Of a stretch of 64,000 bases of DNA, positions 1-33,546 are shown in pieces. The stretch comes from Bacteroidia bacterium. Lineage in GTDB: Bacteria; Bacteroidota; Bacteroidia; Flavobacteriales; Flavobacteriaceae. The notes beneath the pieces were generated by a model that saw only the letters and a list, made by a program, of their open reading frames with translations, did not search any database and had not been told where the DNA came from. The position numbers were made by a program, and so were the translations under genes. Position 1 is the first letter of the stretch, and each line of letters starts with the position of its first letter. The DNA is taken from contig JAUIBP010000008.1 in NCBI GenBank assembly GCA_030427735.1, forward strand, positions 1-64,000, in the 5' to 3' direction.

Positions 1-86
1 GGGCTCACCTCTTACCATTCCGAACAGAGAAGTTAAGCCCATTAGCGCCGATGGTACTGCATTTGTGGGAGAGTAGGTCGTCGCCT
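1..86 (+). rRNA. 5S ribosomal RNA, 3' part
   Basis: This is the 3' portion of a 5S rRNA; its 5' end lies outside the window. The bacterial 5S core text around ACCATTCCGAACAG and the later GGGAGAGTAGGTCG are both readable. A strong terminator follows within a few bases, as expected for the last gene of an rRNA operon, so the 16S and 23S genes should lie just to the left. The exact 3' end is estimated to within a few bases. Confidence 0.93.
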
Positions 87-27760: not shown

Positions 27761-29578
27761 TTATAAATCGAAATAGTTGATATAGGTGTTCAAATCCTTG
27801 TCGCCACGGCCAGATAAACTCAATACCACAACATCATCTGGTTTAAATTGTCGTTGTTTAAAAACGGCAAGTGCGTGCGAACTTTCTATAGCGGGAATAA
27901 TGCCTTCCAGTTTACATAATTCCAATCCAGCTTGCATGGCTTCGTCGTCGGTAATCGATATGAATTCGGCACGACTAGTTCTAAATAAATTGGCATGCAT
28001 AGGACCAACTCCAGGATAATCCAATCCTGCCGAAATAGAGTAGGGTTCGGTAATTTGTCCGTCGTCGGTTTGCATCAATAAGGTTTTACTACCGTGAATA
28101 ATACCTTCCTTACCCAAAGCTGAAGTGGCGGCGCTTTCGCCAGAATGTACACCTAAACCAGCCGCTTCAACAGCAATTAAATTCACATCCGTATCATTCA
28201 AAAACTGATAAAAAGCACCAGCAGCATTACTGCCACCACCCACACAAGCAATAACATGGTCGGGTTTGGTGCGGCCTTCTTTGTCTTGTAATTGCCATTC
28301 GATTTCTTCGGAAACTACTGCTTGAAAGCGCGCTACCATATTCGGATACGGGTGTGGACCAACCACGCTTCCGATGATATAATGTGTGTCTACCGGATTG
28401 TTAATCCAATCTCGAATGGCTTCGTTAGTGGCATCTTTTAAGGTGCGACTTCCCGATAATGCAGGCACAACTGTGGCTCCTAGCATTTTCATGCGGGCTA
28501 CATTTGGCGCTTGTCTGGCAATATCAATTTCGCCCATATAAACCACACATTCTATGCCCATAAGAGCACAAACCGTAGCCGTTGCAACACCGTGTTGTCC
28601 AGCGCCAGTTTCGGCAATAATGCGTTTTTTGCCCAAGCGTTTCGCCATTAAAATCTGACCAATCGTATTATTGATTTTATGCGCACCAGTATGATTTAAA
28701 TCTTCGCGTTTTAAATAAATTTTGGTGTTGTAACGTTCGCTTAAACGTTTCGCAAAATAGAGCGGCGACGGACGCCCCACATAGTCTTTTAAAAGCTGAT
28801 TGAATTCTGCTTTAAAATCGGGTTCGGCCATAATTTTAAGGTAATTTTGGCGTAATTCTTCTACGTTTGGATAGAGCATTTCGGGAATGTAGGCGCCTCC
28901 AAATTCGCCATAATAACCGTGCTCGTTTATATTGTAATTCATAGTTGAGGTGTTGCTTAGTATTTGTGTTTTAAATTGTTGTACCAGATTAAAATCTTTT
29001 AAGCCAGGTGCCGTTTCAAATTTACTGTTTACATCTAAAGCATAACAGTATTTGGACGCCGAACTTTTTAGAAATTGATGGATGTTTTTGACGTCGTCTA
29101 AACCGATTCCGCCACTTAAAAAATAGGGTTTAGTAGATGGATAAGCTTCTAGAATATTCCAATTGAAACTATAACCATTACCGCCTGGAAGTTTGCCTTT
29201 GGTGTCGAAAAGAAAATAATCGCAAACCGACTCGTAAGATTTTAGAACTTTAAAATTGAAATGGTCTTTTATAGAAAAGACTTTTATGATTTCGAGATTT
29301 GATTGTTTGCTTTGAAGTGACGAACAAAATTCAGGCGATTCATCTCCATGCAATTGCACGACTTGAAAATCGTATTTCGAAACGGTATCAATAATTTCCG
29401 ATTCCGAAGCATTCACAAAAACCCCTACTTTTTTAATCGATTTGGGTAATTCAGGAATGTCTGAAGTGATAAACCGAGCTGATTTCTCATAAAAAATAAA
29501 GCCAAGAAAATCGGGTTTCAGGCTAGCGATGGCCTGAATATTTTCTCCCGAAGTCATGCCGCAAACTTTCAATTTCAT
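27761..29578 (-). CDS. trpFB: phosphoribosylanthranilate isomerase-tryptophan synthase beta, single reading frame
   Basis: One open frame of 605 codons holds two enzymes. Residues 1-about 205 are TrpF (KVCGMTS with the catalytic Cys, VQLHGDE, and [15 protein letters not shown] with the catalytic Asp). From Met213 the protein is a complete 393-aa TrpB ([14 protein letters not shown] lysine in [23 protein letters not shown]). The join is the short polar stretch TQILSNTST. Met213 (ATG at 28942) is where a free TrpB would start, so two products from an internal start remain possible. The usual Flavobacteriaceae arrangement is two adjacent genes. Confidence 0.9.
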
Positions 29579-31952: not shown

Positions 31953-33356
31953 TTAAATGTTTTTTGCTAAATCGATGGCTTTGGTTAAGGCACCAAGTTT
32001 GTTGTACACTTCTTGAAGTTCGTCTTCTGGTTTCGATTTTGATACGATTCCAGCGCCTGCTTGCCAATGTAGTTTGTGGTTTTTACTCAAAAAGGTTCTA
32101 ATCATGATGGCATGGTTAAAGTTGCCATCGAAATCCATAAACCCAATAGCGCCACCGTAAAATTCGCGACTGGTTTTTTCGTATTTTTCTATCAGTTGCA
32201 TGGCCTTATGTTTTGGTGCGCCGCTTAAGGTTCCGGCAGGAAAGGTGTCGGCTACCACTTGCATGGTTGCTGTGTTGTTATGTTTTTTACCAATTACTTT
32301 GCTTACTAAATGGATAACATGCGAGAAGAACTGTACTTCGCGATAGGTTTCTACAGTAACTTGATTGCCATGTCTGCTCAAATCGTTTCTAGCAAGATCG
32401 ACTAACATGACATGTTCGGCATTTTCTTTATCGTCTTGCGCTAATTTTTTAGCTAATTCGGCATCTTTTTCGTCGTTTCCAGTTCGCTTGAATGTGCCTG
32501 CAATAGGATGAATTTCGGCTTGATTGTTTTTAACTACCAATTGAGCTTCTGGCGAGCTGCCGAAAATTTTAAACGTACCATAATCAAAATAAAATAGGTA
32601 AGGAGAAGGGTTTATGCTACGCAATGCGCGATACACATTAAACTCGTCGCCTTTAAAATGTTGAGAGAATTTTTTAGATAATACTAATTGGAACACATCG
32701 CCACGAGCACAGTGTTGTTTGGCTAGCTCGACATGTTTTTTATATTCGTTATCGGTTAAATTAGACGCGATATCTTGGTCTGTTGTAAATTGATAGCTAG
32801 CAAACTGATTGGCTTTTATAAGCTGATGAATATCGTCTATATTATTATCGGCTTCGTAACAATGCGCAAAAATATAAGCTTCGTTGTTAAAATGATTAAT
32901 GGCAATTATGTTTTGATAAACGGCATAATATAAATCTGGAATTTCTAAACCGTTATCTTTTTTAGAAATGCTAATATCTTCAAAATAACGAACCGCATCG
33001 TAGCCTATGTACCCAAAAATACCATTGTTTATAAATTTAAAAGTAGTGTTGTTGTCTACTGTAAATCGTTTAGTATAGTCGTGAATGGCTTCTGTTACAC
33101 TGACGTTTTGATCGATTAAAGTGGTGAGTGTTTCGCCGTTTGGAAAGTGCTGCGAAATGGTTTCGTTTTGAACTTTAATAGATGAAATAGGATTAAAGCA
33201 GATGTACGAAAAACTATTGTCGTTTGCATGATAATCGCTACTTTCCAGTAATATGCTATTTGGAAATTTATCTCTTATTTTTAGATATACATTAACAGGT
33301 GTAATGGTATCGGCAAGGATTTTTTTGTAATGTGTGGTTAATTTAAATGTTTTCAT
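31953..33356 (-). CDS. trpE: anthranilate synthase component I
   Basis: TrpE makes anthranilate from chorismate. I set the start at the ATG at 33356 (467 aa, MKTFKLTTHYKK). The frame is open to a TTG at 33395, but that codon lies inside the attenuator stem. The chorismate-binding domain is clear: HPIAGTFKRTG, VMLVDLARNDLSRHG, PAGTLSGAPKHKAM, GGAIGFMDFDG and QAGAGIVSKS. It is first in the structural operon, directly behind the attenuator, and probably feedback-inhibited by tryptophan. Confidence 0.95.
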   Translation of the reverse strand: MKTFKLTTHYKKILADTITPVNVYLKIRDKFPNSILLESSDYHANDNSFSYICFNPISSIKVQNETISQHFPNGETLTTLIDQNVSVTEAIHDYTKRFTVDNNTTFKFINNGIFGYIGYDAVRYFEDISISKKDNGLEIPDLYYAVYQNIIAINHFNNEAYIFAHCYEADNNIDDIHQLIKANQFASYQFTTDQDIASNLTDNEYKKHVELAKQHCARGDVFQLVLSKKFSQHFKGDEFNVYRALRSINPSPYLFYFDYGTFKIFGSSPEAQLVVKNNQAEIHPIAGTFKRTGNDEKDAELAKKLAQDDKENAEHVMLVDLARNDLSRHGNQVTVETYREVQFFSHVIHLVSKVIGKKHNNTATMQVVADTFPAGTLSGAPKHKAMQLIEKYEKTSREFYGGAIGFMDFDGNFNHAIMIRTFLSKNHKLHWQAGAGIVSKSKPEDELQEVYNKLGALTKAIDLAKNI

Positions 33357-33370
33357 GTGTTGTAAGCAAT

Positions 33371-33400
33371 AAAAAAGGCTTGTCGTGAATGACAAGCCTT
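33371..33400 (-). terminator. trp operon attenuator (leader terminator)
   Basis: A perfect 10-bp stem AAGGCTTGTC/GACAAGCCTT with a 6-nt loop is followed on the minus strand by six T residues, 15 nt before the trpE ATG. It lies inside the transcribed leader, so it is a regulatory terminator. The segment TTCACGA (33383-33389, minus) covers the loop and the start of the 3' arm and can pair instead with TCGTGAA of the leader. Confidence 0.88.
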
Positions 33401-33434
33401 GTTATTTTTTATGTTTAAAATATACGTAATAGGT

Positions 33435-33497
33435 CTAGTTCACGAAGTTTGAGTTTCGAGAATTCCACCACCAAGTATGATTTAATATTGTGTTCAA
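33435..33497 (-). CDS. trpL: trp leader peptide, 20 aa, three consecutive Trp codons
   Basis: The frame from TTG at 33497 to TAG at 33435 encodes 20 residues including NHTWWWNSRN; the three Trp codons are at 33465-33473. Straight after them come TTCTCGAA (33455-33462, minus) and TTCGTGAA (33439-33446). These two can pair with one mismatch, and the second can also pair with the attenuator. The initiator is a TTG; no in-frame ATG lies between it and the promoter. Confidence 0.8.
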   Translation of the reverse strand: MNTILNHTWWWNSRNSNFVN

Positions 33498-33515
33498 TTG
33501 TTTACTTATTTGATT

Positions 33516-33546
33516 CAAATATAGGAATGTAAAATTAGTTTTCAAA
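33516..33546 (-). promoter_or_regulatory. trp operon promoter
   Basis: On the minus strand TTTG (33543-33546), a 19-nt spacer and TATATTTG (33516-33523) match the Bacteroidota consensus fully. The leader peptide would begin about 10-15 nt after the start of transcription. Confidence 0.75.

Follow-up and report, generated by a model that had tools for sequence, protein, structure and literature searches.

Tandem tryptophan codons ahead of a tryptophan operon raise the question of whether the ribosome that translates them controls the operon. The trp leader of E. coli carries Trp codons, segments with the alternative pairings 1:2, 2:3 and 3:4, and a terminator, and in the enterobacterial leader the target of segment 2 is the 5′ arm of that terminator. 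A sequence-only reading of the 64,000-nucleotide stretch analyzed here (the window) had proposed an attenuator of this kind before trpE. We evaluated that proposal in the window itself, in close relatives, and in more distant Bacteroidia.

The leader region and its operon

The promoter, the 20-codon frame with three TGG codons, the pairing segments, and the terminator that had been described were all recovered in place on the minus strand (Table 1). With the position of the -12 to -5 motif taken from a passage of PMC9723704, the transcription start is predicted at about 33511. Segments 1 and 2 (TTCTCGAA:TTCGTGAA) form 7 pairs around the single mismatch that had been noticed, a T-T. As also proposed, segment 2 can pair instead with the terminator loop and arm: TCGTGAA (33445-33439) forms 7 pairs with TTCACGA (33389-33383), using 5 loop bases, 2 bases of the 3′ arm, and none of the 5′ arm. 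The terminator is indeed a perfect hairpin of 10 pairs (33400-33375) with a T-run to 33371, and the ATG of trpE at 33356 lies 14 nt past this run. The leader region folded at -30.8 kcal/mol versus -17.1 kcal/mol for shuffled sequences (z, -4.6; 0 of 200 as good).

Table 1. Features of the trp leader region, in window coordinates
Feature	Position	Strand	Basis
Promoter: TTTG 33546-33543, 19-nt spacer, TATATTTG 33523-33516	33516..33546	-	sequence; Bacteroidota type
Rfam RF01692 (Bacteroid-trp) match	33391..33517	-	59.3 bits, gathering score 49
Leader peptide frame, 20 codons, TTG 33497 to TAG 33435, LNTILNHTWWWNSRNSNFVN*	33435..33497	-	sequence
Outer helix, 5′ side, ATAC; encloses Trp codons with its partner	33475..33478	-	fold and Rfam structure
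Three consecutive Trp codons TGGTGGTGG (putative stall site)	33465..33473	-	sequence
Segment 1, TTCTCGAA	33455..33462	-	paired with segment 2 in fold
Segment 2, TTCGTGAA, conserved core TCGTGA	33439..33446	-	pairs with segment 1 and with 33389-33383
Outer helix, 3′ side, GTAT; partner of ATAC 33475-33478	33422..33425	-	fold and Rfam structure
Intrinsic terminator hairpin AAGGCTTGTC-ATTCAC-GACAAGCCTT, 10 pairs	33375..33400	-	sequence, comparison
Antiterminator target TTCACGA (terminator loop and top of 3′ arm)	33389-33383	-	pairing with segment 2
Terminator T-run	33371..33376	-	sequence
trpE, first gene of the operon	31953..33356	-	frames; Pfam PF04715 and PF00425

The element is a member of Bacteroid-trp (Rfam RF01692) and, since that family is already present in Rfam, it is not a new element; the interpretation as a flavobacterial trp attenuator was largely upheld. 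At gathering scores, Rfam matches in the window were limited to RF01692 and 5S rRNA, with no T-box and no RF00513. Within the window alone, neither the Trp run, which was present in 13 of 100 shuffles of the 64 kb, nor the promoter motif TATATTTG, found 5 times versus 7.5 expected, goes beyond chance; the question is settled by their conservation in relatives, described below. We also considered a common genomic terminator as the source of the hairpin and rejected it, as GGCTTG..CAAGCC occurs at 4 sites of the genome, of which the attenuator alone carries TCACGA.

The operon order is trpE-trpG-trpD-trpC-trpFB-trpA, in which trpG, trpD, trpC, and trpA were identified by reading the translations. 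The trpF and trpB parts form one open frame (window 27761-29578, minus strand) encoding a 605-amino-acid protein that matches both PF00697 (PRAI) and PF00291 (PALP). This fused protein was matched throughout in five congeners and in genomes G011 and G021, and in G022 with one TGA. G010 and G039 have a single long frame (633 and 651 amino acids) for both parts, so that a fusion is possible there; in the remaining matching relatives the two parts look separate, or only one is listed.

The genome that contains the window gave no match to the Trp repressor family, whereas the E. coli and B. subtilis controls both matched. Elsewhere in this genome, 321 nt before a HisG domain match, a short frame with a His run (MLFIQVHHHHFHTCTQAS) is followed by what looks by eye like a terminator, a hairpin plus T-run; this is probably a his attenuator ahead of hisG. 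The missing repressor match and this His-run leader suggest that leader-peptide attenuation may be general in the organism.

Conservation and alternative pairings

The close set consisted of the best 30 trpE loci from 59 relatives and the best 80 of 131 named loci, and its sources may share species; it included the window (L001), and one locus without upstream DNA (L129) was set aside, leaving 109. By TrpE, the nearest named loci among the best 80 of 131 were Flavobacteriaceae. The Trp run and the terminator motif occurred together at 108 of the 109 loci and the 1:2, 2:3, and 3:4 pairings recurred, so the element passed the test of conservation in relatives that the sequence-only reading had set for it. 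At 104 of the 109 loci, a leader with tandem Trp codons lies no more than 330 nt from trpE. These codons are in frame in all 104 leaders, three in a row in 101 and two in L029, L030, and L087. The terminator was found in each of the 104 by a laxer rule; a stricter one missed L111 and L127.

Four loci (L082, L084, L092, and L107) carry TGGTGGTGG and the terminator motif near -490, beyond the 330-nt limit. A gene lies between attenuator and trpE at these loci: in L084 it encodes a 112-amino-acid GIY-YIG protein (Pfam PF01541), and the other three look similar by eye. L130 has no leader and retains only the 3′ half of a terminator (TTCACGACAAGCCTTTTTTT), about 100 nt upstream of trpE. By eye, this remnant adjoins a stretch resembling a tRNA 3′ end, and ARAGORN detected no tRNA in L130; an insertion may have left it behind as a scar, or the locus may be misassembled.

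The TTG start of the leader is correct for the window but is a local trait, found in 5 of the 104 leaders (the window, three of the five congeners, and L073); the other 99 start with ATG. All 104 have a TAnnTTTG motif no more than 60 nt before the start of the leader (about 4% expected by simple arithmetic). Its distance to the start is bimodal, with 4 to 9 nt in 29 leaders, 13 to 24 nt in 72, and other values in 3, and leaderless RNA may be the template for some of the leader peptides.

The position of the leader stop codon was a further constant. In all 104 leaders the stop lies between -9 and +8 nt of segment 2, as counted from the last match to the segment 2 motif (in L099 the motif matches in segment 1 too). 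The other two frames reached the same interval in 27 and 53 of the 104, and shuffled leaders with a stop at segment 2 numbered 64.6 on average and at most 75 (200 rounds). The stops fall at -6 in 27 leaders, at +3 (TCG TGA) in 44, at +8 in 27, and elsewhere in 6. A ribosome terminating at such a stop would cover segment 2, as an attenuation model requires.

In the 8-pair core of the terminator (3:4), all 792 of the 792 cells from 99 distinct sequences were paired, three pairs had changes in both strands, and none of 500 shuffles did as well. Covariation, the other test proposed, was thus found for 3:4, but not for 2:3. In the 2:3 helix (TCGTGA with TCACGA), 591 of the 594 cells from 99 distinct sequences were paired. 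It is nearly invariant in the close set, conserved rather than covarying, with one compensatory change (L030) and a score that 8 of 500 shuffles reached. This constancy is telling, because segment 2 meets the reading frame differently from group to group (one has it after the stop codon, another reads it as TCG TGA, and yet another as TTC GTG) and because TCAC lies mostly in the hairpin loop, where the terminator alone would not constrain it. In the 104 leaders the target of segment 2 was the loop plus 1 to 4 bases of the 3′ arm, a few also including one base of the 5′ arm.

Segment 2 was paired upstream (at least 4 of 6 core bases) in 102 of the 104 leaders, with a mean z of -2.0; the 1:2 hairpin of the window is modest (z, -1.4). 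Segment 1 varies by group (TTCTCGAA, CTTTCGAA, CTTACG, and others), and L025, L028, L139, and L140 show a paired change from CTTACG:CGTGAG to TTTACG:CGTGAA. RNAalifold run on the alignment predicted the terminator and no other helix; it misses 1:2 because the registers of segment 1 differ, so this pairing was judged sequence by sequence. When partners of the outer helix were swapped, 167 of 20,000 permutations did as well as the original pairing in the close set (50 distinct arms), and 0 of 20,000 did so in the distant set described below (43 leaders). This helix may explain why Asn-Thr often precedes the Trp codons.

Whole genomes were searched for Trp-Trp, TCGTGA, and TCACGAC in the expected spacing. 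This pattern was present in 205 of 298 genomes of the window's family and missing in 93, and the backward control was present in 5, as counted from its rows. Of 98 relatives, 37 had an RF01692 match above the cut-off. A sample of 198 genomes from across the phylum gave 16 with such a match, every one of them from the window's own family. In one genome (G090, family f9; locus L047), an RF01692 match with the leader MKNTVNTYWWRYLLLKKS stands before what appears by eye to be a trpB-like gene followed by a trpE-like frame.

The distant set added 52 trpE upstream regions from 29 families (12 relatives and 40 of 48 rows; families as labeled by the tool). A short leader frame in which two or three Trp codons stand nearly side by side was found before trpE at 44 of these loci in 24 of the 29 families, or at 39 of 47 loci in 23 of 28 families once the five loci of the window's own family are left out. 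A leader was not seen at the other 8 of the 52, including L184, for which 212 bases only were at hand. A terminator was found for 43 of the 44 leaders. When Rfam was run on 15 of the 52 loci, RF01692 exceeded the cut-off in L163, and matches under the cut-off on the correct strand were obtained in L164, L165, and L200; L162 scored above the cut-off in the Rfam search of relatives.

As a group, the distant leaders fit their own terminators: the best leader:terminator helix over the 43 averaged -13.66 kcal/mol for own partners versus -10.76 kcal/mol for permuted ones, and 0 of 20,000 permutations were as good (four of the 43 come from the window's own family). Taken singly, the own 2:3 helix was reached by at most 5 of 60 shuffles in 24 of the 43 and by more than 5 in the other 19. 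The targets in these 24 lie on the 5′ arm in 15 (13 with loop bases), in the loop alone or with the 3′ arm in 5, on the 3′ arm alone in 2, and across all three parts in 2. Pairings with the 5′ arm and loop are exemplified by GAACAGC with GCTGTTC in L200 and GTGGACAGC with GCTGTTCAC in L205. L163, L166, and L196, which belong to the window's own family, use the loop and the 5′ arm, showing that the antiterminator target has shifted within that family.

L164 and L165, from two genomes of one genus (family f2), carry two Trp-run leaders in series before trpE. Each leader is followed by its own terminator, giving two putative attenuators in tandem.

A working model and its alternatives

The conserved Trp codons, terminator, and alternative pairings support the earlier suggestion that stalling would free segment 2 as an antiterminator. 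We consider it very probable, on comparative grounds, that the ribosome controls transcription attenuation of the trp operon through this Bacteroid-trp RNA. From its anatomy, its conservation, and the fit between segment 2 and its own terminator, all of them observed, we infer translation, stalling, termination, and read-through as follows. When charged tRNA-Trp is ample, the ribosome would clear the three Trp codons and halt at the leader stop on segment 2; with segment 2 occupied, the terminator would form and transcription would stop near 33371. When Trp is short, the ribosome would stall on the Trp codons and cover segment 1, and the freed segment 2 (TCGTGAA) would bind TTCACGA, in the loop and upper 3′ arm, while the remainder of that arm is still to be synthesized, so that polymerase would continue into trpE. 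If the ribosome were absent, the 1:2 hairpin and the outer helix would sequester segment 2 and the terminator would form; a ribosome on the Trp codons would open the outer helix.

Energies calculated for a ribosome on the first Trp codon, with its edge 14 nt ahead and no pseudoknots allowed, favored 2:3 until only 3 to 4 nt of the 3′ arm remained to be made. Once complete, the terminator was better than 2:3 by about 7 kcal/mol (-17.6 versus -10.7 in the window). Antitermination would thus be decided in time and not by final stability.

Because 2:3 takes only 2 bp of the terminator stem in the window (1 to 4 over the 104 leaders), mutual exclusion is not evident from pairing alone, and loop capture with a pseudoknot becomes a real alternative. 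The attenuator would be the same, but segment 2, rather than dissolving the terminator, would capture its loop in a pseudoknot and so prevent the remaining stem from acting on the polymerase. The 5 loop bases among the 7 of the window's target fit this variant, as do L164 and L165, where the target is the loop only or nearly so. Yet at least one base of the 3′ arm is included in every one of the 104 close-set leaders, as expected if strand competition matters, and L163, L166, and L196 of the same family reach the 5′ arm instead. We regard the pseudoknot as a possible but rather unlikely form of the switch.

Two further explanations fared much worse. One of them takes the hairpin as an ordinary terminator, serving background transcription or transcription from upstream, behind a leader frame that is not translated. 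A Trp run that is not significant in the window alone would agree with this, but about 100 loci conserve the Trp codons, the pairings, and the position of the stop, which makes it very improbable. Equally hard to credit is a leader bound by a protein or an uncharged tRNA (TRAP-like or T-box) instead of a stalled ribosome: the very constant terminator sequence could suggest one, but this constancy is partly due to the pairing with segment 2, the window has no T-box match at gathering score, and the 104 leaders keep tandem Trp codons in frame.

Returning to attenuation by a stalled ribosome, we are evenly divided on a broader proposal: that Trp leader-peptide attenuation is class-wide in Bacteroidia beyond RF01692, that its antiterminator moved along the terminator between lineages and even within the window's family, that the window and its closer relatives capture the loop before closure, and that some lineages run two switches in series. 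Should leader-peptide attenuation operate at this locus, a flavobacterium must couple its transcription tightly to translation; flavobacteria are described in a passage of PMC9723704 as being without Shine-Dalgarno sequences. The locus would then serve as a simple reporter of this coupling.

Comparison with known systems

The Bacteroid-trp family was published in 2010, where it is named in a table row (Weinberg 2010, PMC2864571). Passages on Flavobacterium psychrophilum place it upstream of the trp operon and liken it to the E. coli leader (2019, PMC6414381) and report strong clues from the transcriptome for leader-peptide attenuation upstream of amino-acid operons (2021, PMC9723704). In these passages the element and the proposed mechanism are the same as ours, and the antiterminator anatomy is absent from them. 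Passages of PMC4833913, PMC2965389, and PMC7366714 contain nothing on a Bacteroidota trp leader, and PMC2965389 (2010) states in such a passage that, until its own case in Firmicutes, its authors were aware of leader-peptide systems in Proteobacteria and Actinobacteria only. The antiterminator partner, the stop-codon rule, and the class-wide spread are additions that literature searches covering open-licence papers did not turn up, although class-wide trp leaders may be in print.

The window element shares with RF01692 its context, before trpE of a trp operon in a Bacteroidota genome, and its position, sequence, and structure up to the 5′ arm of the terminator. The Rfam model stops at that arm (GGCUUGUC), which leaves both the terminator hairpin and the partner of segment 2 outside it, whereas the window element continues into the hairpin. 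A thinly described RNA thereby gains a testable working model that includes its antiterminator partner.

Judged as a ribosome-mediated trp attenuator, the window element has WWW in frame, a terminator, a competing antiterminator, and a 1:2 hairpin, while the exclusion between 2:3 and 3:4 is only partial by pairing. With the enterobacterial trp leader (RF00513) it has in common the Trp codons, the 1:2, 2:3, and 3:4 pairings, and the terminator. The enterobacterial logic that had been assigned to it therefore holds, but the geometry does not: segment 2 targets the loop and the top of the 3′ arm of the terminator, and not the 5′ arm as in the enterobacterial leader.
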